Below are positions 13,917 through 58,867 of a stretch of DNA of 64,000 nucleotides, in pieces. The DNA is from Acetobacterium woodii DSM 1030 (GTDB lineage: Bacteria; Bacillota; Clostridia; Eubacteriales; Eubacteriaceae). The stretch lies in the NCBI RefSeq assembly GCF_000247605.1, contig NC_016894.1:248001-312000 (forward strand), given 5' to 3'. The position numbers were made by a program, and so were the translations under genes. How positions within the stretch are numbered: position 1 is the first letter of the stretch; the number at the start of each line of letters is the position of its first letter. The notes beneath the pieces were generated by a model, which searched no databases, was not told where the DNA came from, and worked only from the letters and a program-made list of their open reading frames with translations.

Positions 13917-14774
13917 ATGAAAGTTTTATTAACCGGCTCTAATGGTCAATTAGGGCGAGAATTAACGCGGCAACTTAAAGAAAAAAAGATAGTCCATGTT
14001 GGATATGACATTCCTGAGTTTGACATTACAAATAAAGTGGAAATTGCGAAGATTATTAATAAAGAAAAACCGACCGTTATTATCAATTGCGGGGCCTTGA
14101 CAAATGTCGATGGCTGTGAAACGCAGCGGGATCTGGCGATGAAGATCAACGCCGTTGGTCCAGAATATCTGGCCGAAATTGCCCGGGATCTGGATATTGT
14201 GTTGGTACAAATTTCCACTGATTATGTTTTTGATGGGAATGGGATTTGCGAAAACGGCAGTTTGCGACCTTATCTGGAAAGCGATCCGATCGATCCCAAA
14301 ACGGTTTACGGCGAAAGTAAAGCCGCGGGTGAAAAAGCGGTTTCAGAAATCACGCCGAAGTATTTTATTATCCGGACTGCCTGGTTGTATGGAGACGGTA
14401 ATAATTTTGTCAAAACGATGTTGGATCTGGCCTCGAAAAATCCAAAACTGACGGTCGTCAATGATCAAGTCGGTTCGCCAACCAGTACGGTGGATTTAGC
14501 GGAAGCAATCATTGATCTGATCCAGACAAATAATTACGGACTTTATCATGGCACCTGCGAAGGACAATGCAGTTGGTATGATTTTGCTGTGGAAATTTTT
14601 AGATTAGCCGGAATTGACATCCCGGTGGAACCCGTTACTTCAGAGCAATTTGTCCGACCGGCGCCGCGGCCTAAATATTCGGTGCTGGAAAATAAAGCTT
14701 TAAATGATTTAAACATCAACCGTTTCAGACCCTGGCAGGTTTCCCTGGCAGAGTATCTGGAAAATTTGAAATAA
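13917..14774 (+). CDS. rfbD: dTDP-4-dehydrorhamnose reductase
   Basis: Last step of dTDP-L-rhamnose synthesis, NAD(P)H-dependent reduction of the 4-keto group. The N-terminal motif TGSNGQLG binds the cofactor, STDYVFDG is a strongly conserved family segment, and YGESKAAGE contains the catalytic Tyr-x-x-x-Lys pair. The length of 285 residues is typical. AAGGTG precedes the ATG. First gene of a set D-A-C-B. Confidence 0.95.
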   Translation: MKVLLTGSNGQLGRELTRQLKEKKIVHVGYDIPEFDITNKVEIAKIINKEKPTVIINCGALTNVDGCETQRDLAMKINAVGPEYLAEIARDLDIVLVQISTDYVFDGNGICENGSLRPYLESDPIDPKTVYGESKAAGEKAVSEITPKYFIIRTAWLYGDGNNFVKTMLDLASKNPKLTVVNDQVGSPTSTVDLAEAIIDLIQTNNYGLYHGTCEGQCSWYDFAVEIFRLAGIDIPVEPVTSEQFVRPAPRPKYSVLENKALNDLNINRFRPWQVSLAEYLENLK

Positions 14775-14842
14775 AAAATGACCAATCCGAAAGAAATGCT
14801 GCTCAATTGCTTGGATATCAGGTTGCAAAAATAATTTGATAC

Positions 14843-14870
14843 CGGGGAACTGTTTTTGGACAGTACCCCG
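14843..14870 (+). other. Hairpin in the rfbD-rfbA gap
   Basis: An 11-bp stem with one mismatch (14843-14853 with 14860-14870) lies in the 186-bp gap between rfbD and rfbA. It has no T-run after it. It may modulate transcript stability or partial termination. Nothing else was recognised in the gap apart from the rfbA ribosome binding site. Confidence 0.4.
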
Positions 14871-14960
14871 AAGAATCGGAATTGTTTGCGGCAAACTGAG
14901 ATACCAAGCTGGCGGCACTTTTTGTTATGAGCGGATAATTTATTAGAAGAAGAGGTAATT

Positions 14961-15830
14961 ATGAAAGGTATTATATTAGCTGGCGGTTCGGGGACGCGAC
15001 TTTACCCGATTACCCGGGCAGTATCCAAACAATTACTGCCAATTTACGACAAACCAATGATTTACTACCCATTATCGACTTTAATGTTGGCGGGGATTAA
15101 AGATATTTTGATTATTTCCACCCCTCACGATTTGCCTATGTTTGAACGTCTTTTTGGTTCGGGTGAAGAATTGGGGTTGAATTTTTCTTACGCCGAACAA
15201 GCGGCACCAAACGGTCTGGCGGAAGCTTTTCTTATCGGTGAAAAGTTTATTGGCGATGATAATGTGGCGCTGGTATTAGGCGATAATATTTTTTATGGGC
15301 ATGGCTTTACCGAAACCATCAGAAAAGCAGCAGAACTGAAAACTGGAGCAGTGATTTTTGGTTATCCGGTGACCGATCCGGAACGTTATGGAGTGGTTGA
15401 GTTTGCCGAAGATGGAACGGTGCTTTCAATAGAAGAAAAACCAACCCAGCCAAAATCCAATTTTGCGGTGCCGGGACTTTATTTTTATGATCATTCGGTG
15501 GTCGAAATTGCCAAACAGATAAAACCGTCTGAACGCGGGGAATTGGAAATAACCACCGTTAATGAAACCTATTTAAAACAAGGCAACTTAAAGGTAGAGT
15601 TATTTGGCCGGGGGATGGCGTGGCTCGATACCGGAACTCACGACAGTTTGATTGAAGCATCAAATTTTGTTGAAACGATTCAAAAACGACAGGGACTTTA
15701 CGTTGCTTGTGTCGAAGAAATTGCTTATTTGCGCGATTTTATTAATAAGGAACAATTACTGCGGTTGGCAGAACCGTTAAAGAAAACCGCCTATGGACAA
15801 TATTTAATCCAGTGTGCAAAAGACAGATAG
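14961..15830 (+). CDS. rfbA: Glucose-1-phosphate thymidylyltransferase
   Basis: First step of dTDP-L-rhamnose synthesis, joining dTTP and glucose 1-phosphate. The signature [19 protein letters not shown] (6-24), the metal-binding [11 protein letters not shown] and [11 protein letters not shown] are all present. Length of 289 residues is standard for RmlA. AGAAGAGG lies before the ATG. The rfbC ribosome binding site overlaps its stop codon. Confidence 0.97.
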
Positions 15831-22150: not shown

Positions 22151-22195
22151 CGTTACAATTATAGGCGGCGACATTCGGTTGTAATAACGATGATC

Positions 22196-22243
22196 GGCAA
22201 TTGCGTAACTGGACACCAAGCTTATAGCAATTTCGTAATTACC
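22196..22243 (+). repeat. Hairpin with TAATTGC-type ends in the amidase leader
   Basis: GGCAATTGCG (22196-22205) pairs with CGTAATTACC (22234-22243) in 9 of 10 positions. The right end read in reverse, GGTAATTACGAAAT, resembles the ends of the elements at 35620 and 58648. It lies within the transcribed leader. It may be a diverged member of that family or an independent leader hairpin. Confidence 0.4.
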
Positions 22244-22275
22244 TTTAAGATATATTTAAAGAAAGGAGGCAAATT

Positions 22276-25107
22276 ATGGAAATAATTAGAAATAGAAAAA
22301 AGCAGATTGCGTTGGGAATTGTAATGACGCTTGTCTTATTGACGTTTTTTTCATATTTTAGCTTAGATGTCAAGGCGGCCAGTACGACCATTGTTGTTAA
22401 TCCTGGGCATTTGGATGGGGTTGATACGGGGGCTGTAAACAAAAGTAATGGTATTCGTGAGGTTGACCTTAATAATGCGTTGGCGATTAAGGTGGTATCA
22501 ACCTTGCGGCAAAATGGTTATAATGCGATGTTAAGCCATCCGGTCCCGGGAAATCCGGGGTTGCCAACCCTGCTTTCAGCACCGCCGGCATATTCGGCTT
22601 ATTCAACCACCATTTGTAATAAGGCGAATCAAATTGGTGCTGACTTATTGATCAGCATCCATCATAATTCTGGAGCGGCAACCGCCAGTGGTTATGAATT
22701 TTATTGGAGCAGTTATCATCCATCGGTTGATACGAATGGGATTTATCAAAAGCCTGGATTATGGAGTGATGGATCGTTGGCAGATTTAGATGCAACACCA
22801 CCAACGATCGCGTTAAAATCCAAAGAACTGGCGAATCTTTTAAATGACAATTTCAGCGAAAATTTAACCTATGTTCCCAGTCGCGATAAGATTATTGAAC
22901 GAGATGATGCAATCACAAGAAAAACCAGTATGCCATCGGTATTGATTGAAGCGGGTTATGTGTCAAATAATGCCGAAGTCGTGAAAATGGCAGATGACAA
23001 CAATCAACAACAGATGGCCAATCAGATTCTGGCAAGTATTAATGAACTTTTTGGGGCAAATACAGACCTGATGACGGCGACGAGTTTTACCGCCAGTGTT
23101 AATGGCGATAAAATTACCGCAACTGTAAATGGCGTTTCAGCTCCAAATGGCTTACAAGTGATTTACATTCCGGTATGGAGTGATGATGGCGGTCAGGATG
23201 ACTTGAAATGGTATCCGGCAACCAAACAAGGGGATGGCAGTTACAGCGCGACAATAGACGTTAAAGATCATGGTTATGAAAGTGGCAACTACCAATTACA
23301 TTGTTATGGGGTTGATTCTTACGGGAAGTATACCTTATTAGGCCATACCACTGTAAATGTCACCTCATCGGTGCAGGAAAAAATGACAGCAAGCAGTGTG
23401 ACCGGAACGGTTTCGGGAAATAAAATTACGGCAACCGTTAAAGGCATTTCAGCCCCGAACGGACTGACGGGAATTACGATTCCGGTTTGGAGCGAAACCG
23501 GCGGTCAAGACGATTTGAAGTGGTATTCGGCGACGAAACAAAGTGATGGCAGTTATCGGGTGACAATCGACATCAAGGATCATAATTATGATGGCGGACT
23601 TTATAACATCCATGCTTATGGAATAGACAACAATGGTAAAATGACATTTTTGGGTAACACGTCGGCGACGGTTAAAGTTGATACAATGACGGCAACGAGT
23701 GTAAGTGCCAGTGTCTCCGGAAATAAAATTACGGCAATGGTTAAAGGGATAACCGCACCGAATGGAATTACGGAAGTGATCATCCCAATCTGGAGCGAAA
23801 CCAACGGCCAGGATGATTTGAAATGGTACCCGGCGACCAAACAAAGCGATGGCAGCTATGCGGTGACAATTGATATCAGGGATCATAATAATGATGGCGG
23901 AACCTATAATATTCATGCTTATGGCAAAGATAATAATAATAAAATGACATTTGTCGGCAGCACCTCGGTGAACGTTCTGGTTGAACCAATGACTGCAACC
24001 AGTGTAACGGCCAGCGTCTCCGGAAATAAAATTACGACAGTCGTGAAAGGCATTAAGGCGCCAAATGGGCTTAAGTCAATTGCCGTCCCAATCTGGAGTG
24101 ATGTTAACGGTCAGGACGACTTAAAATGGTACACCGCGACCAAACAAAGCGATGGCAGTTATGCGGTGACAATTGATATTAAGGATCATAATTATTCAGG
24201 TGGGGTTTATAATATCCATGTTTATGGAACTGATGATAGTGGTAAGCAAACTTTCCTTGGGAATACCTCGGTTAGCGTAGCGACGACACCAATGTCGGCA
24301 ACCTCGGTAAAAGCTTCGGTGGCGGAAAATATGATTACCGTCGTTGTTAGTGGGATAACAGCTCCAAATGGGATTAAAAAGATTGAGATTCCAACCTGGA
24401 GTGATATCAACGGTCAAGATGATTTGATTTGGTATACTGCAACCGAGCAGAGTGATGGCAGCTATAAGGTCGTTATTGATGCCAAAAACCATCATGGCGA
24501 CAGTGGAACTTATTTGATTGATGCTTACGGTGTGGAGTCGGATGGACGATTCGTACCGCTGGGCAGTACTTCAGCAAGTGTCCGTTATGTGGAAACCCCA
24601 ATCATGGGAGAAACAACGGTGACAGCAGCCGAATTGGTAGCCTATTATAAAGCGTCAGGAAGTGTTTATCCGCAGATCTACAACGATTTAGGCGTGAATT
24701 TAGAGAAGTTTGTCGATCTTTACATTCAGGAATGTAAAGTGGAAGGTGTTCGTGCGGAAGTTGCTTTTGCACAGGCCATGCTTGAAACTGGGAATCTTCA
24801 ATTCGGCGGTGATGTAAAAGTGACACAATTCAATTTTGCCGGCTTAGGTGCCACCGGAGGCGTTCCGGGATTTGATTTCTCAGTCGTATATGGGAATAAC
24901 AGCACCGGACTTCAAACCGGAATTCGTGGTCATGTGCAGCATTTGAAATGTTATGCCTGTGATGAAGATTTGAAGCAAACCAATGTTGATCCGAGATGGA
25001 ACGATAAGATCCGATTGCGGGCGCTTTCGGTTGAAGAATTGGCAGGAACCTGGGCTGCCGATACCACATATGCAACTAAGATTAAAGCGATTATGAAGAA
25101 GTTTTGA
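22276..25107 (+). CDS. Secreted N-acetylmuramoyl-L-alanine amidase with five GBS-Bsp-like repeats and a glucosaminidase domain
   Basis: Cell-wall hydrolase of 943 residues. A signal peptide (about 1-35, cleavage near VKAAS) is followed by an Amidase_3 domain (about 38-255) with the zinc ligands H45, E62 and H129 and the late catalytic segment VLIEAGYVSN. Five repeats of about 101 residues (starting near 266, 370, 471, 572 and 673) share GQDDLKWY and YNIHAYG and resemble the GBS Bsp-like repeat. The C-terminus (about 780-943) is a glucosaminidase domain with E837 in AMLETGNLQF. It can thus cut both the peptide stem and the glycan strand. AAAGGAGG precedes the ATG. It has its own promoter and terminator inside the polysaccharide locus. 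Confidence 0.93.
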   Translation: MEIIRNRKKQIALGIVMTLVLLTFFSYFSLDVKAASTTIVVNPGHLDGVDTGAVNKSNGIREVDLNNALAIKVVSTLRQNGYNAMLSHPVPGNPGLPTLLSAPPAYSAYSTTICNKANQIGADLLISIHHNSGAATASGYEFYWSSYHPSVDTNGIYQKPGLWSDGSLADLDATPPTIALKSKELANLLNDNFSENLTYVPSRDKIIERDDAITRKTSMPSVLIEAGYVSNNAEVVKMADDNNQQQMANQILASINELFGANTDLMTATSFTASVNGDKITATVNGVSAPNGLQVIYIPVWSDDGGQDDLKWYPATKQGDGSYSATIDVKDHGYESGNYQLHCYGVDSYGKYTLLGHTTVNVTSSVQEKMTASSVTGTVSGNKITATVKGISAPNGLTGITIPVWSETGGQDDLKWYSATKQSDGSYRVTIDIKDHNYDGGLYNIHAYGIDNNGKMTFLGNTSATVKVDTMTATSVSASVSGNKITAMVKGITAPNGITEVIIPIWSETNGQDDLKWYPATKQSDGSYAVTIDIRDHNNDGGTYNIHAYGKDNNNKMTFVGSTSVNVLVEPMTATSVTASVSGNKITTVVKGIKAPNGLKSIAVPIWSDVNGQDDLKWYTATKQSDGSYAVTIDIKDHNYSGGVYNIHVYGTDDSGKQTFLGNTSVSVATTPMSATSVKASVAENMITVVVSGITAPNGIKKIEIPTWSDINGQDDLIWYTATEQSDGSYKVVIDAKNHHGDSGTYLIDAYGVESDGRFVPLGSTSASVRYVETPIMGETTVTAAELVAYYKASGSVYPQIYNDLGVNLEKFVDLYIQECKVEGVRAEVAFAQAMLETGNLQFGGDVKVTQFNFAGLGATGGVPGFDFSVVYGNNSTGLQTGIRGHVQHLKCYACDEDLKQTNVDPRWNDKIRLRALSVEELAGTWAADTTYATKIKAIMKKF
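23071..24585 (+). repeat. Five tandem repeats of about 303 bp within the amidase gene
   Basis: Each unit encodes one GBS-Bsp-like domain. Units 2 to 4 are the most alike at DNA level (for example the recurring GGAAATAAAATTACG), which suggests recent expansion or gene conversion. Not a CRISPR array: the units are long and keep an open frame. Confidence 0.85.
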
Positions 25108-35552: not shown

Positions 35553-35619
35553 TATTGAATAATAATACATTGATAAAGACTGGATTTGAATCAATAACTA
35601 TAAATTGCAAAAGAGCTCG

Positions 35620-35653
35620 GTAATTGCAAAACGGCTGTGAGTTTTGCAATTAC
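35620..35653 (+). repeat. Short palindromic element with TAATTGC ends
   Basis: Perfect 13-bp inverted repeat (GTAATTGCAAAAC at 35620-35632, GTTTTGCAATTAC at 35641-35653) with an 8-nt loop. Its left end and loop (GTAATTGCAAAACGGCTGTG) closely match the left end of the 165-bp element at 58648. It ends 37 bp before the start of the next glycosyltransferase. Confidence 0.7.
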
Positions 35654-35689
35654 TTAATGATAAAATATATGATAAAAGGGGAAAAACGA

Positions 35690-52729: not shown

Positions 52730-53418
52730 TGGCCGAAAAAATATTGGAAATGAAAAACCTGATCAAAACCTATCTCATGGGGGATGAGGAACAGGTGGTC
52801 TTAAAAGGAATTGATCTTGAACTTAACCGGGGCGATTTTCTTTCGATCCTGGGACCATCCGGATCGGGGAAATCTACCTTGATGAATATTATTGGATGTT
52901 TAGATGTGCCAACCAGTGGCAGTTATTATTTGTCTGGCGAATTGATTCGAGATTTACCGGAAGCCGAACTCTCTCATATCAGGAATCGCGAAATTGGCTT
53001 TATTTTTCAGCAATTTCAATTGCTGCCGCGGTTATCGGCGCAAAAAAATGTTGAACTGCCGCTTATTTATGCCGGAGTAGCCGAAAAAGAAAGGCAGGAA
53101 CGTAGTGCCCATATTCTGGAACGGGTCGGGCTGGCTCACAAAATGAAAAATCGCCCCAATCAGTTATCGGGTGGCCAGCAACAACGGGTTGCTATTGCCA
53201 GAGCGCTGGTGACTGAACCGACGATTCTTTTGGCAGATGAACCCACTGGCGCGCTCGACCAACAAACGGGACAGCAGATTATGACCCTTTTCAGAGAATT
53301 ATATGAAGAAGGAAAAACAATTGTGATGATTACCCATGACGCTGATGTCGCTAAAAATGGCAGTCGGATTGTCGGGATTGTTGATGGGAATCTTAGCGAG
53401 GGGGTATACAATGCTTAA
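52729..53418 (+). CDS. MacB-type ABC transporter ATPase
   Basis: ATPase of 229 residues with Walker A GPSGSGKST, FIFQQFQLLPRLSA, signature [15 protein letters not shown] and Walker B ILLADEPTGALD, the typical pattern of the LolD/MacB/FtsE group. It overlaps the adaptor by 1 bp and the permease by 8 bp, so the three proteins should be made together. Confidence 0.94.
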   Translation: MAEKILEMKNLIKTYLMGDEEQVVLKGIDLELNRGDFLSILGPSGSGKSTLMNIIGCLDVPTSGSYYLSGELIRDLPEAELSHIRNREIGFIFQQFQLLPRLSAQKNVELPLIYAGVAEKERQERSAHILERVGLAHKMKNRPNQLSGGQQQRVAIARALVTEPTILLADEPTGALDQQTGQQIMTLFRELYEEGKTIVMITHDADVAKNGSRIVGIVDGNLSEGVYNA

Positions 53419-54583
53419 GGAAAGTATTAAAATGGCAATAGAAAATATAGTCAGCAATAAAATGCGGTCTTTTCTTACCATGCTGGGTATTATTATCGGA
53501 GTTGGTTCGGTGATTGCCCTGATTACCATCGTTTCCGGAGCTACCAGTACCATCACCGATCAGGTTGCATCGATGGGGGCCAATACGGTAACCGTTCAAA
53601 TTAAGGGGACGCCATTAAAACCGGGACTGACGCAGGGCGATGTTAACAAGATCACGGAACTTCCAAACATCACCGGCGTGGCGCCAACTATTTCAGGAAT
53701 AACGACGGTCGCTTTTGATGGCAACAGCATGGATAAAATTACCCTACAGGGAAAAAATGATGTTTATTTTGAAAACACCGAAGATGTTATTTCGTCTGGG
53801 CGTATTATTAACCGTATTGATATCGAAAATAACAGTCGCGTGGCGCTGATTGGAAATGATATTGTTAAAGAACTTTATGTGGGGAAAAACCCGATTGGAC
53901 AGGAAATAAAAATCGGCGGCATTACTTATCATATCATTGGCATTTTACAAGAATCGGATAGCTTTGCTTCGGCTGGCACCAATAATTCCGTGATCATTCC
54001 TTATACCACAGCGATGGGGGTGGTCGGCGCAAAATATATTAACAGCATGACTGTCTACATTACGGATGAGTCGCTGGCAGATACCACGACCCGGCAAATC
54101 GAAGGGCTTTTAACAAAGTCGTTTAATGGCAATGAAGATGGTTATTCGATTGTCAATATGCAAAATATTCTGGAGACGATCGAAAGTATGACTAATATTC
54201 TCTCGATGATGTTAGGTGGAATTGCGTCCATTTCATTGGTAGTTGGTGGGATTGGGATTATGAATATGATGCTGGTTTCGGTGACCGAACGAACCAGTGA
54301 AATTGGATTGCGCAAAGCCCTGGGCGCAGAACCCAAGCAGATTCAACTCCAGTTTCTGATTGAGTCAGTGGTGTTGTGCCTGATTGGCGGGATCATTGGA
54401 TTTATAGTTGGTGTCAGTCTGGCCTGGATCGCCGCGCAACTGATTGGTATCAGTTTTGTTTTGACCACATCCACCGTTGTTTTAGCGATTGGTTTTTCAG
54501 CCTTTATCGGGGTTGTTTTTGGTTTTATGCCAGCTCGAAAAGCTTCGCGCCTCAATCCCATTGATGCCCTCAGAAGTATTTAA
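53411..54583 (+). CDS. MacB-type ABC transporter permease
   Basis: A 390-residue permease with one N-terminal helix (NKMRSFLTMLGIIIGVGSVI), a large outside MacB_PCD domain (about 45-250) and three C-terminal helices of the FtsX fold with the signature VTERTSEIGLRKALGA. The ATG at 53411 follows GAGGGGG and overlaps the ATPase gene. The frame is open further upstream inside the ATPase gene, which is not meaningful. Confidence 0.94.
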   Translation: MLKESIKMAIENIVSNKMRSFLTMLGIIIGVGSVIALITIVSGATSTITDQVASMGANTVTVQIKGTPLKPGLTQGDVNKITELPNITGVAPTISGITTVAFDGNSMDKITLQGKNDVYFENTEDVISSGRIINRIDIENNSRVALIGNDIVKELYVGKNPIGQEIKIGGITYHIIGILQESDSFASAGTNNSVIIPYTTAMGVVGAKYINSMTVYITDESLADTTTRQIEGLLTKSFNGNEDGYSIVNMQNILETIESMTNILSMMLGGIASISLVVGGIGIMNMMLVSVTERTSEIGLRKALGAEPKQIQLQFLIESVVLCLIGGIIGFIVGVSLAWIAAQLIGISFVLTTSTVVLAIGFSAFIGVVFGFMPARKASRLNPIDALRSI

Positions 54584-54682
54584 AAAGCAGCTGGTAACTA
54601 AATTATTTAGCGCAGACCGGGAACGAAGGCGACGATCCTTTTGCAATGGGTTATTTAGAGTAGAGAACGTGAGGAAAAAGAA

Positions 54683-55354
54683 ATGTTTTGTATTTTGATT
54701 TGCGAAGATGATAATCATATTCGGCGCCTGTTTCGGGATACGCTGGAAAAAGAAGGGTATTCAGTTTTTGAAGCGGCTGATGGAGACATGGCGCTGGCAG
54801 TATTGGAAACAAATCATATTGATTTGTTAATCACCGATGTGATGATGCCGCATCTCGATGGACATGCCTTGACCCGGACATTAAGAGAGGGAGGCTTTGA
54901 GCTTCCCATTCTGATGATCACGGCCAGAGATAGTATGGATGATAAAAAAACTGGTTTTAAAGCTGGGACGGATGATTATATGGTTAAACCTGTGGACATG
55001 GATGAAATGCTGCTTCGGGTTTTTGCTTTATTGCGGCGTTCAAGGATTGCCAATGAACAGCGGTTGGTGGTCGGCCAAACGGTATTGGACTATGAGGCAT
55101 TAAGCCTAAGCGTTGGTGAATCAACGATAACCCTGCCCCAAAAAGAATTCCTTTTGTTGTTTAAACTACTATCGGCACCAAATCGTATTTTTACACGGGT
55201 TCAAATAATGGATGAAATCTGGGGTTACGAAAGTGAAAGTGATCATCGCACCGTCGATGTTCATGTCAAACGATTAAGAGAAAAACTCGAAAATAATCGG
55301 GATTTTGAAATTATTACGGTTAAAGGCCTGGGTTATAAGAGCCGCGTTTTATAA
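54683..55354 (+). CDS. OmpR-family response regulator
   Basis: A 223-residue regulator. The receiver domain has the acidic pair E8-D9-D10, the phosphorylation site D52 (LLITDVMMP), the switch Thr in ILMITARD and Lys in MVKPVD. The C-terminal winged helix shows ESDHRTVDVHVKRLREKL. It lies 99 bp after the MacAB-type genes and just before a sensor kinase gene, so it likely controls the exporter. Confidence 0.95.
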   Translation: MFCILICEDDNHIRRLFRDTLEKEGYSVFEAADGDMALAVLETNHIDLLITDVMMPHLDGHALTRTLREGGFELPILMITARDSMDDKKTGFKAGTDDYMVKPVDMDEMLLRVFALLRRSRIANEQRLVVGQTVLDYEALSLSVGESTITLPQKEFLLLFKLLSAPNRIFTRVQIMDEIWGYESESDHRTVDVHVKRLREKLENNRDFEIITVKGLGYKSRVL

Positions 55355-55373
55355 AACAGAAAAAAGGAGTCAG

Positions 55374-56687
55374 ATGAAGAAGAAAATTTTGCATTCTATT
55401 TACACAAAATTTCTGGTTATATTTTTAGGGGCCCTTTTTTTTTCAGTAACGATCACTTTTGGCGTGATTTATTATACTCAGTTGGGCAATATTCTCAATC
55501 AAATCCGGATCGAACTGGTGAATCAGACCCAGGTGGTTCAGACTTTGAATCAGGAAAAGTTGAGTGATCAAAAAATCACGGAATTATTTAGTCAGGGCAT
55601 TGTGGTATCGCGGATTTATTCGAGTTTGGCTGAAGCTGAGGTAACGTTGTCAGAAGCAGAAATAGCGCAACTTGAAAAGGATGAAATTGTCTACCTGGAT
55701 GTGTATCAATCGCATAATTTACCCCTGGCACTAGGGAAACTAACGGATGGTTATGTTCTTAGTATGCCAAATCTGGAACGGAATCAAGTCGCCGGGTTTA
55801 TGAATCTTCAACGAACCACGATGCTGGTAACTTTATTAATCGGATCGGTGCTGATTATGATTGCCGTGGCGATGATTGTTAAACCAATTAAAGCAGTTTC
55901 GGAGGCGACAAAAAAGGTCGCTGAAGGCGATTTTGATTTGCGTCTGAAAGTGAAAGGAAAAGATGAGCTGGCGATGCTGGCCCGAAATTTTAATGTGATG
56001 ACGGAAGCGCTTTCGCGGAATGATTATATTCATCGCGATTTTGCCAGTAATGTGTCCCATGAGTTTAAAACACCCATTGCTTCCATTAAAGGTTTTGGGA
56101 AATTGTTAAAAGACCCGACGATTAGCGAAAGTCGGCGGCAGGAGTACATCGATATTATTGTTGATGAAAGTGATCGGCTGGGGAAGCTTTCGGCAAACGT
56201 GTTAAAACTTTCAGAATTGGAAAATGGCGTGTTGGGGTTAAAAAAAGATGCCTTTGCGTTAGATGAAACGATCCGGCGGGTGGTATTGCTACTTCAGGAA
56301 AAATGGGAGTTTAAAAATATCAATCTGGATATCCAACTGGATGAAGTTCTTTACAAAGGAGATCAGGAATTAATGGCGCAGGTGATGATTAATCTTTTTA
56401 CCAATGCCATTAATCATACCCCGGACAATGGTGAAATTGGAATCAAACTTGAGACGGTTGAAAAAGAAATCGTCATTCAAATCAGCGATAATGGCGATGG
56501 GATTGCGGTTGAAGATCAGGGCAAAATATTTGACCGCTTTTATAAAGCCGATCAATCTCGCAGCACTCCCGGAACCGGTTTGGGTCTTACCATATCACAA
56601 CGAATTATTAGTCTTCATGGAGGGACGGTGACAGTAACGAGTAAGTTGGGGGCAGGCAGCACCTTTTTTGTCAGATTACCGCAGTAA
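55374..56687 (+). CDS. Sensor histidine kinase
   Basis: A 437-residue membrane kinase. Two membrane helices (about 13-35 and 155-178) flank an outside sensor region of about 120 residues; a HAMP domain follows (VKPIKAVSEATKKVAEGDF). The HisKA motif SHEFKTPIASIKGF holds the phosphorylated His, and the ATP-binding part has NLFTNAINHTP, ISDNGDGI and GTGLGLTIS. The ATG at 55374 follows AAGGAG. It is the partner of the regulator upstream. Confidence 0.95.
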   Translation: MKKKILHSIYTKFLVIFLGALFFSVTITFGVIYYTQLGNILNQIRIELVNQTQVVQTLNQEKLSDQKITELFSQGIVVSRIYSSLAEAEVTLSEAEIAQLEKDEIVYLDVYQSHNLPLALGKLTDGYVLSMPNLERNQVAGFMNLQRTTMLVTLLIGSVLIMIAVAMIVKPIKAVSEATKKVAEGDFDLRLKVKGKDELAMLARNFNVMTEALSRNDYIHRDFASNVSHEFKTPIASIKGFGKLLKDPTISESRRQEYIDIIVDESDRLGKLSANVLKLSELENGVLGLKKDAFALDETIRRVVLLLQEKWEFKNINLDIQLDEVLYKGDQELMAQVMINLFTNAINHTPDNGEIGIKLETVEKEIVIQISDNGDGIAVEDQGKIFDRFYKADQSRSTPGTGLGLTISQRIISLHGGTVTVTSKLGAGSTFFVRLPQ

Positions 56688-56927: not shown

Positions 56928-58634
56928 ATGTATGAGGTACTCTATAGTTTATATTCGGCTGGACTGATAATTTCAATCATCTGCATCATTGGAGTAGCGC
57001 TTCAAAAACCAACTGAAGAGCAAAAAATCATGCTGCTGATTACATTTTTTGCTTTTTTACTTTCGTTGGGATATTGGTTTAATGTTCAATCAAACGCTGT
57101 AGACGCTTCAATAATAGCCTATAAGCTGATGTATCTTGGTGGGAGCAGCCTTTATTTTTTATTCGTGTTATTTTTTGTTCGTTATTATAAAATAAAACCA
57201 CCGCTGTTGCTGTGGGTATTTTGGGGTATCCTTGGGATTGTTTTTGCGGTCGCCATCCTGACAATGGATCACCATCATTGGTTTTACCAAAGTTATTCTT
57301 TTGCTTACGAAGCCGGAGTGCCGATCCTGATTAAAGAATATGGAGCGCTTCATACGGTCTATATAATTATGGAAGCTGCCGTTAGTGTGGGACTGGTGAG
57401 CTTGGTTATTTATCAGAGCATTAAACGAAAAGACAAAGATTCATGGGAGCCGTTTTTATTGTTGATGGTGCCGTTAATTCCGACCCTGATTCATATCGGC
57501 GGCCGTTATTTACAAACACAAATTGACTTGGTATCAATTGGGATTTTGATGTCGGAGATGTTATTAATTATCCTCATTTATCGACTAAAAATTTATGATA
57601 TCAACGATACCGCCAAACAGTTGATCATCGATTCGATGGATGATGCAATTGTGGTAGTTGATCAGCATTATCTATATAAGGAAGCAAATGAACAAGCGAT
57701 CGTTTTGTTTCCGGAATTGGCGAAAGCAAAAAAAGATACGAAGCTGGCGGAGATATCGAACGATTTGGAGCAGACCCTTAAATCAGAAGATCCAAGTTTG
57801 TTTTATCGGGACTGCTGGATCTACGAACCGCGGATTAAAACCATTCACCGGAATAATCAGATCAGAGGTTATGTTATTTGGTATCTCGATGTAACCGAGT
57901 CGGAAAAACGTAAAGCGTTGATTCTCAATTACCAACAGGAGCTGGAAAAAGAAGTACAGGTAAAAACCGCACGGATCGAAGAAATTCAGGAACAGATTAT
58001 TGTCAGTTTTGCCAATATTATTGAAATGCGCGATACCATTACCGGCGAACATGCCCGGCGAACCAGTATTTATGCCGAAAAAGTTGCCACAGTTCTTTAC
58101 CAGAATGGCGATTATCCGGAAATCGTCGACCAACATTTTATCCGCTTACTCCGTTTAGCGGCACCGCTTCACGACGTTGGAAAAATTTTGATTCCCGACA
58201 ATATTTTAAACAAACCGGGAAAATTAACAGAAGATGAATGGGTGCTGATGAAAAAGCATGCTGAAAATGGTCAGGATATTTTAAAAAATGCCTTGTCTAA
58301 AATTCAAGATGTCGATTATTTGAAGATCGTCTGTGAGGTAGCGATGTATCATCATGAACGCTGGATTGGAACGGGTTATCCGGAAGCTTTATCGGGCGAA
58401 GCGATTCCGCTTAGTGCCAGAATCATGGCGATAGCCGATGTTTTTGATGCTTTGACATCGGAACGATCATATAAAGACGTCTACGATTATGATACAGCAT
58501 TTGAAATTATCAAAAAAGAACGGGGCCTTCATTTCGATCCGATTCTGGTGGATGCGTTTTTATCTATCCGCAAAGAGATCGAAGCGATCGCGATAAGCGA
58601 AACACAGGCAGAGCGTAAAGATGAGATAGTTTAA
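56928..58634 (+). CDS. Membrane HD-GYP domain protein (possible c-di-GMP phosphodiesterase) with 7TM sensor and PAS-like region
   Basis: A 568-residue protein. About seven N-terminal helices (1-225) resemble the 7TM sensor region of some histidine kinases; a PAS-like segment (about 230-320) and a short coiled coil (about 325-355) lead to the HD-GYP domain. Metal ligands are visible: H415-D416 in HDVGKILIPD, the later KKHAENG, YHHER and IADVFDAL. GYP is present, but the usual WDGTGYP reads WIGTGYP (I480) and the final RPYK reads RSYK. It may still be active. The ATG at 56928 has AAGG 9 bp upstream; an ATG six codons earlier lies right against its possible site. Confidence 0.88.
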   Translation: MYEVLYSLYSAGLIISIICIIGVALQKPTEEQKIMLLITFFAFLLSLGYWFNVQSNAVDASIIAYKLMYLGGSSLYFLFVLFFVRYYKIKPPLLLWVFWGILGIVFAVAILTMDHHHWFYQSYSFAYEAGVPILIKEYGALHTVYIIMEAAVSVGLVSLVIYQSIKRKDKDSWEPFLLLMVPLIPTLIHIGGRYLQTQIDLVSIGILMSEMLLIILIYRLKIYDINDTAKQLIIDSMDDAIVVVDQHYLYKEANEQAIVLFPELAKAKKDTKLAEISNDLEQTLKSEDPSLFYRDCWIYEPRIKTIHRNNQIRGYVIWYLDVTESEKRKALILNYQQELEKEVQVKTARIEEIQEQIIVSFANIIEMRDTITGEHARRTSIYAEKVATVLYQNGDYPEIVDQHFIRLLRLAAPLHDVGKILIPDNILNKPGKLTEDEWVLMKKHAENGQDILKNALSKIQDVDYLKIVCEVAMYHHERWIGTGYPEALSGEAIPLSARIMAIADVFDALTSERSYKDVYDYDTAFEIIKKERGLHFDPILVDAFLSIRKEIEAIAISETQAERKDEIV

Positions 58635-58647
58635 ACTTAAATACTAG

Positions 58648-58812
58648 GTAATTGCGAAAATGCCGTGAGCGTTGGGCCCAGTTTTGCACGAAACAATTTC
58701 TACACGTTACGGCGGACAGTTCGATGAACTGTTCGCCTACACGTTACAAAATTGTTTGTGAAAACTGCACCCAACGCAACCGTTGTTTGATGTTTTTTAA
58801 TTTCGCAATTAC
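58648..58812. repeat. 165-bp multi-helix palindromic element
   Basis: The ends GTAATTGCGAAA (58648-58659) and TTTCGCAATTAC (58801-58812) are perfect 12-bp inverted repeats. Inside are further paired arms in register: 58669-58676 with 58770-58777 (8 bp), 58680-58685 with 58761-58766 (6 bp), 58687-58698 with 58750-58760 (11 bp, one bulge) and 58711-58722 with 58726-58737 (12 bp, one G-U). The internal loop carries the direct repeat CTACACGTTAC on both sides (58700-58710, 58737-58747). No coding frame. It could be a miniature mobile element or a structured RNA. Confidence 0.85.
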
Positions 58813-58827
58813 TTATATCTTAAATAC

Positions 58828-58867
58828 AAAAAGGAGATCGCCGGATAATCCGGTCGATCTCCTTTTT
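58828..58867. terminator. Bidirectional terminator between HD-GYP and ABC exporter genes
   Basis: An 18-bp stem (58828-58845 with 58849-58867, one bulged base) with a 3-nt loop, A-rich and T-rich at the ends, between convergent genes. It is separate from the 165-bp element that ends 15 bp before it. Confidence 0.9.

Follow-up and report, generated by a model that had tools for sequence, protein, structure and literature searches.

A MITE of Acetobacterium woodii and a probable partner IS lie at a fixed distance before Shine-Dalgarno-like motifs

Tn7-like and terminator-directed elements insert into safe harbours. The IS1182 family, one member of which is IS1272, has inverted ends and a single transposase ORF. 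The accessible part of PMC5678879 describes IS1272 as moving by replacement of inverted repeats. MITEs (non-autonomous mobile repeats) such as RUP, SPRITE, Correia and Nezha are short and non-coding, with inverted ends, a target duplication and a strong fold, and in some cases they have a partner IS with common ends, according to the portion of PMC3049150 available to us. IS elements found in REP sequences are directed to a recurrent motif outside genes, as far as the available text of PMC1525189 goes.

Here we analyse an element in a window of 64,000 nucleotides of A. woodii DSM 1030 (NC_016894.1, positions 248,001 to 312,000). The original prediction had seen a 165-bp structure of stacked inverted repeats and left two readings, a non-autonomous mobile repeat or a structured RNA. 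On sequence evidence, the element is a MITE and not an RNA at a conserved position: its ends are those of an IS, it has target duplications and empty sites, it is 171 bp long without a transposase, and its copies are many and dispersed.

The element and its family

The 165 bases at 58648-58812 do have perfect 12-bp ends (GTAATTGCGAAA), and as DNA the window copy folds at -44.3 kcal/mol (mean of 200 shuffles -20.5, s.d. 3.3, z -7.3), a value that none of the 200 shuffles reaches. The predicted structure is thus real, although its extent had to be widened. The target duplication and the other copies fix the true ends at 58645 and 58815, where the terminal repeats TAGGTAATTGCGAAA and TTTCGCAATTACTTA differ at one of 15 positions. 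The apical stem, the internal loop and the CTACACGTTAC on both sides of it are present as described. The left CTACACGTTAC, however, is private to the window copy and not a family trait: of the other 30 copies in an alignment of 31, 29 have CTACACKGTAC at its position and one has TTACACTGTAT. The apical stem of the window copy includes a G-T mismatch (G-U in a + strand RNA). As the original prediction had stated, the element holds no gene, its sole ORF being a mechanical 85-aa frame that runs out of the element, and it stands beside a terminator of which it is not part.

The window copy lies between convergent genes (Table 1). Its target duplication is 11 bp with one mismatch, and the left duplication begins on the third base of the stop codon that closes the upstream HD-domain gene. 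Further upstream, at 53336-56687, the translations read as an ABC-type permease gene followed by a response regulator/sensor kinase pair.

Table 1. Features of the element and its derivatives in the window
Feature	Position	Strand	Basis
MITE copy, full element, 171 bp	58645..58815	+	full-length family-model match, 210.7 bits; duplication and ends
Left terminal inverted repeat TAGGTAATTGCGAAA	58645..58659	+	15/15 bases identical to right end of autonomous IS
Right terminal inverted repeat	58801..58815	-	reads TAAGTAATTGCGAAA on - strand, 1 mismatch
Apical stem GGCGGACAGTTC-GAT-GAACTGTTCGCC	58711..58737	+	108 genome places at <=3 mismatches, control 0
Left target duplication AACTTAAATAC	58634..58644	.	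1 mismatch to right copy
Right target duplication ATCTTAAATAC	58817..58827	.	1 base past element end
Two-way intrinsic terminator, convergent genes on either side	58828..58867	.	read by eye
GGAG of AAAAAGGAGATCG, Shine-Dalgarno look-alike	58833..58836	+	17 bases past element, in 5' arm of terminator
Internally deleted derivative, 40 bp	35617..35656	+	model E 0.0025
Decayed derivative, 52 bp	22194..22245	-	weak model match, E 0.62; context
Decayed longer copy, upstream of ORF at 14961	14771..14928	-	model E 0.00029

Derivatives occur elsewhere in the window. The 34-bp palindrome at 35620, whose likeness to the left end of the element had been pointed out, indeed belongs to the same family. It lies upstream of AAAAGGGG, which stands 19-21 bases past its end, outside the usual register, and also upstream of a putative gene start. 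The 52-bp derivative ends 30 bases before an ATG at 22276 that is preceded by GAAAGGAGG, an assignment to be read with the caution that matches to the element ends are no more frequent in the window than chance.

A search of host and genus, proposed as a check on the mobile reading, bore it out. In the host genome (a single contig of 4,044,777 bases) BLAST gave strong matches (40 of the 193 candidates scored), and the end motif GTAATTGCRAAA occurs 165 times, its reversed control 3 times. With a covariance model of 31 copies we obtained 144 host matches (148 candidates scored); because these may count both strands of one place, we use as counts the 108 apical stems and 103 distinct full-length copies, the strongest among the model matches listed, on which all copy statistics below rest. 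Host included, 16 of 19 genomes of the genus have matches by BLAST and 17 by the covariance model. All 66 apical-stem stretches in named genomes are labelled Acetobacterium, except one labelled Eubacteriaceae. Shorter forms with internal deletions, 52 to 134 bp long, also occur in the host; they have the ends of the full element, and several have duplications. In relatives there are forms of about 260 bp with extra hairpins, folding near -100 kcal/mol; in those we looked at (L105, L069, L072, L098, L112, L077, L073, L067) the same extra block sits on the right arm, or inverted on the left. Private changes among the 103 host copies are fewer in the core (94 in 109 sites) than in the ends (48 in 30; Fisher p 0.0007), a contrast to which we give no weight because the model that picked the copies rewards the core.

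Two kinds of evidence speak for mobility. Target duplications flank 86 of the 103 host copies when one mismatch is allowed (two from 11 bp on) with a shift of at most 3 bases, and flanks mismatched as a control gave a mean of 0.55 and a maximum of 2 in 20 trials. The duplications are mostly of 11 bp (34 copies), 10 bp (29) or 12 bp (15), with seven of 9 bp and one of 13. Moreover, the insert is absent from the window site in all seven loci, from seven other genomes, that we took as orthologous from an upstream-gene homologue at 81-84% protein identity (L209-L215). Each of these loci has a terminator-like hairpin between the two genes, as read by eye. Downstream of the HD-domain gene in three of them (L209, L211 and L213, from G009, G010 and G018) a fragment beyond the terminator resembles one arm of the family, and looks like a decayed relative.

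The partner IS

We found the partner IS through regions that have the end motifs without the apical stem. The host copy (G000:C1:1106821-1108497, 1677 bp) has the ends TAGGCGTTTGCGAAA and TAGGTAATTGCGAAA and the duplication GAACACCAGT. The MITE and the IS have only their ends in common. In the host genome we found no intact partner: a frameshift interrupts the transposase of the copy at 1106821, and the other copy, at about 1286540, is truncated. The transposase frame is open, at 485-486 codons, in copies of 1678-1761 bp from G003, G008, G013, G014 and G016. More widely, the transposase has matches in 10 of 67 genomes of the order and in five plasmid records, the best from Roseburia (68.5%) and Butyrivibrio (61.5%). 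A clear target duplication was not seen around the Roseburia IS, and a distant relative in G022 (48% identity), whose other end is near a contig edge, is uninformative on the target.

The transposase of one copy (L180) matches DUF772 (PF05598) at 47.9 bits, above the cut-off, and DDE_Tnp_1 (PF01609) at 17.3 bits, below the cut-off of 23; for relatives in G003, G008 and G016 the PF01609 cut-off is passed only when neighbouring pieces are added (24.5-26.1 bits). The NCBIfam model for IS1182 (NF033551) matches with E 2.6e-19, and since the score of 69.5 bits is under the curated cut-off of 270 we file the partner as IS1182-like only. No solved structure matches the transposase at E up to 10.

PF01609 transposases at large were rejected as partners: none of 30 fetched loci (2 from the host, 28 from the genus) is flanked by both ends at up to 3 mismatches. 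The weak PF01609 matches in G003, G008, G014 and G016, which are outside those 30 loci, are copies of the partner IS itself. The host also has two near-identical 1.88-kb copies of another IS (L061 and L062, at G000:C1:659609 and 3784051) with a 536-codon DDE transposase frame, around which the ends of the MITE were not found.

Copy numbers of the IS and the MITE are uncoupled across genomes. Ten IS copies stand in G013, where the MITE has no match; in G001, G009, G010, G017 and G018 the MITE has many matches and the transposase none. In these five another transposase may act, or the partner may have been lost or may fall in an assembly gap.

Insertion sites

Neither the autonomous partner nor the position of the copies was part of the original prediction. 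A Shine-Dalgarno-like 4-mer (AAGG, AGGA, GGAG, GAGG, AGGG or GGGG) begins 13-18 bases past an end in 97 of the 103 host copies, and past both ends in two, compared with 10-16 copies at nine control distances. Two of the six copies that lack it have AAGGAG or GGAGG slightly outside the range. GGAG is present within flank bases 9-32 of 74 copies, in 63 of them at offset 15-17 (5-13 of 103 at six control distances), and GGAGG lies close to the element in 41 (controls 0-2). The register is that of the motif: the first GG past the duplication comes after 5 bases in 50 flanks and after 8 bases in 23, together 73 of the 85 scored, and these distances are the two GG positions of AGGAGG.

Most of these motifs precede genes. 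Behind the motif, 81 of the 99 flanks have a start codon that opens an ORF of 60 aa or longer, and 64 of these start codons stand 25-29 bases away from the element. The remaining 18 flanks come from as many copies, the window copy included. In two of the 18, 109479 and 32770, the motif at the opposite end does have a gene behind it, so that a gene start follows in 81 of the 97 motif-bearing copies and 16, again with the window copy, are gene-free. Copy 109479 had been considered as a gene-free terminator site like that of the window copy, and was dropped for the real start of a gene beyond its opposite end. In a few of the 16 an ATG is present at the right place, with no ORF by our rule (689914, where the fetched stretch ends soon past the motif, and 445514). 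By a rough ORF rule, the neighbouring genes are co-directional for 71 of the 103 copies, divergent for 22 and convergent for 2; a further 5 copies are inside an ORF and 3 are unresolved. Because insertion is at a fixed distance before Shine-Dalgarno sequences, genes are usually left unbroken.

The window copy is instructive here. Its look-alike motif stands in a terminator: AAAAAGGAG is the foot of the terminator stem, no gene follows it, and no ORF of at least 60 aa starts behind AAAAAGGAGATCG. A gene therefore seems not to be needed for targeting, and the cue seems to be a DNA motif rather than translation. Part of the genic share is due to selection, which acts against harmful insertions and so also favours leaders.

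The IS has the same address. Among fetched IS loci, 20 rows have readable ends (9 of them from G013), and in 18 of these the motif stands at the fixed distance. The two exceptions are a truncated copy and a tandem-array copy whose neighbour at that side is another IS copy. The Butyrivibrio relative fits as well, its left end being followed by TTGGAGGG and an ATG. In all 18 rows the motif is at the transposase-5' end (two-sided binomial p 8e-6 if insertions are independent), and therefore the IS points away from the gene that it precedes. The MITE is found in both orientations relative to the motif (43 to 31 of 74). In the MITE the two end types set no orientation rule: among 23 copies with mixed ends, the 20 that are informative divide 11 to 9. 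Only the IS obeys such a rule. As MITE copies are unoriented, the orientation signal would lie deeper in the IS than its first 15 bases, or selection would account for it.

Tandem copies one duplication apart are found in G013 (three IS) and on Butyrivibrio pCY360 (two IS), and the host MITE pair 53902/54083 is also tandem, with an imperfect spacer. In the G013 array (L184/L201/L203, G013:C1 ~1018694-1023965) the three IS stand head to tail with the same 11-bp duplication between them and the motif at the outer left end. Such arrays fit a target that survives insertion.

Proposed mechanism, alternatives and known systems

We think it very probable that an IS1182-like DDE transposase acts in trans to move the MITE, and that this enzyme recognizes its target by the Shine-Dalgarno motif in DNA. 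The transposase would bind the ends TAGGYRWTTGCRAAA common to the MITE and the IS and would make a cut in the target, staggered by about 10-11 bp, at such a position that the duplicated segment of 10-11 bp ends four bases before AGGAGG. With the cut at this point the insertion would fall between promoter and ribosome-binding site, the ribosome-binding site and start codon would stay intact, and a stable 171-nt hairpin would be left in the 5' leader. What we infer here is the reading of the motif by the transposase itself, the movement of the MITE by the IS1182-like enzyme and any effect of insertion on expression.

The inner hairpin bears on the rival readings. For its alignment, 165 matches in relatives were reduced to 73 rows (weak, opposite-strand, cut or partial rows, eight 260-bp forms and repeated sequences were dropped), one host copy was added, four short or divergent rows were removed to leave 70, and two identical cores and two with an extra block to leave 66. 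In a consensus structure on these 66 cores, ends removed, 98.0% of cells pair. Thirteen pairs are changed on both sides, giving 77 doubly changed cells versus 16.3 on shuffling (0 of 500 as high) and 3-7 on sliding, numbers that come from related sequences, many of them from loci found through the apical stem, and from a structure drawn from the same alignment. Repair between the arms of a palindrome can also copy changes from arm to arm; as the G-T mismatch is kept in most copies, together with bulges (by eye), such copying is probably not the whole story. Within the genome, covariation is nil apart from two pairs, as expected of young copies. We conclude that the inner hairpin is under structural constraint, which may act on DNA in transposition or on RNA in leaders. 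Of the two outcomes by which an RNA was to be recognized, the comparison shows compensatory changes across species and no conservation of position.

A structured RNA, cis-regulator or sRNA, held in place by selection would account for these paired changes and for the leader position of most copies. We nevertheless regard it as very unlikely: the element is missing from all seven orthologous loci, it has target duplications, it lies in either orientation to the genes (30 same and 41 opposite at co-directional sites), the window copy stands between convergent genes, and no Rfam family matches at its gathering score (the best overlapping matches reach 19.7 of 38 bits needed and 18.7 of 97). Insertion anywhere AT-rich, with selection sparing the copies in leaders, would make the closeness to Shine-Dalgarno sequences a matter of survivorship. 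The largely intergenic placement, with few copies inside ORFs, agrees with this. We judge it improbable, though somewhat less so than the RNA, since selection alone would not readily set a single-base register such as that of the first GG, some motif flanks are gene-free, and the IS keeps the same register in one orientation. The slightest chance goes to a REP/BIME-like repeat moved by a RAYT (Y1) transposase. GTAG with a palindrome is a feature of REPs, and on the - strand the core has GTAG before an imperfect palindrome; Y1_Tnp matches occur in 18 of 19 genus genomes, with one in the host. Against it, none of 30 fetched Y1_Tnp loci has a copy in its flanks up to 1.5 kb (E up to 1), and duplications with inverted ends match a DDE-type IS instead. 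The single host Y1 transposase gene (L252, G000:C1:3135876-3136205, ~225 aa) is presumably RAYT-like.

Under targeting by an IS1182-like transposase, a wider possibility arises, which we put forward tentatively and with some doubt. The motif in double-stranded DNA may be the transposase's fixed, oriented address, and the MITE may install a covarying leader at dozens of genes, forming a mobile 5'-leader regulon in Acetobacterium with stability, temperature or RNase as candidate responses. Given the constrained hairpin, inserted copies may have a role as RNA. In A. bakii, cold induction of acetogenesis genes has been tied to long, folded 5' leaders, and the accessible part of that work shows no link from the leaders to a dispersed repeat (PMC6239172). 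The family is a concrete candidate source of structured 5' leaders in the genus.

If the mechanism holds, addressing ribosome-binding sites would be a new way for a transposon to reach a safe harbour, one by which the element enters the most useful non-coding spot without damage and leaves the target usable; this last property would explain the tandem arrays. In acetogens it might also become a tool by which cargo is placed ahead of genes. Among the matches listed, a literature search that covered subscription papers poorly gave no report of this Acetobacterium repeat or of an IS or MITE directed to Shine-Dalgarno sequences (the available part of PMC3196728 included), which is weak evidence of novelty because most subscription papers lie outside it.

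How, then, does this family compare with described ones? The element is like RUP, SPRITE, Correia and Nezha in all the traits listed at the outset, and differs from them, so far as the available account describes those MITEs, in its fixed-register insertion before Shine-Dalgarno motifs and in an inner hairpin with paired changes across species. The partner is like the IS1182 family in its DUF772, its weak DDE_Tnp_1 match, its one transposase ORF and its inverted ends; unlike that family it has a 10-11 bp duplication and Shine-Dalgarno-directed, oriented insertion, and it falls short of the family score. With the IS elements of REP sequences it shares a recurrent motif outside genes as its address, although the target here is the ribosome-binding motif itself, a difference drawn from the part of PMC1525189 at hand. 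Its safe-harbour insertion recalls Tn7-like and terminator-directed elements, unlike which it uses many sites, a six-base motif and, in the IS, a single transposase ORF. In kind the family is thus ordinary, a MITE and its IS; what is unusual is its address, the ribosome-binding motif at a fixed register.
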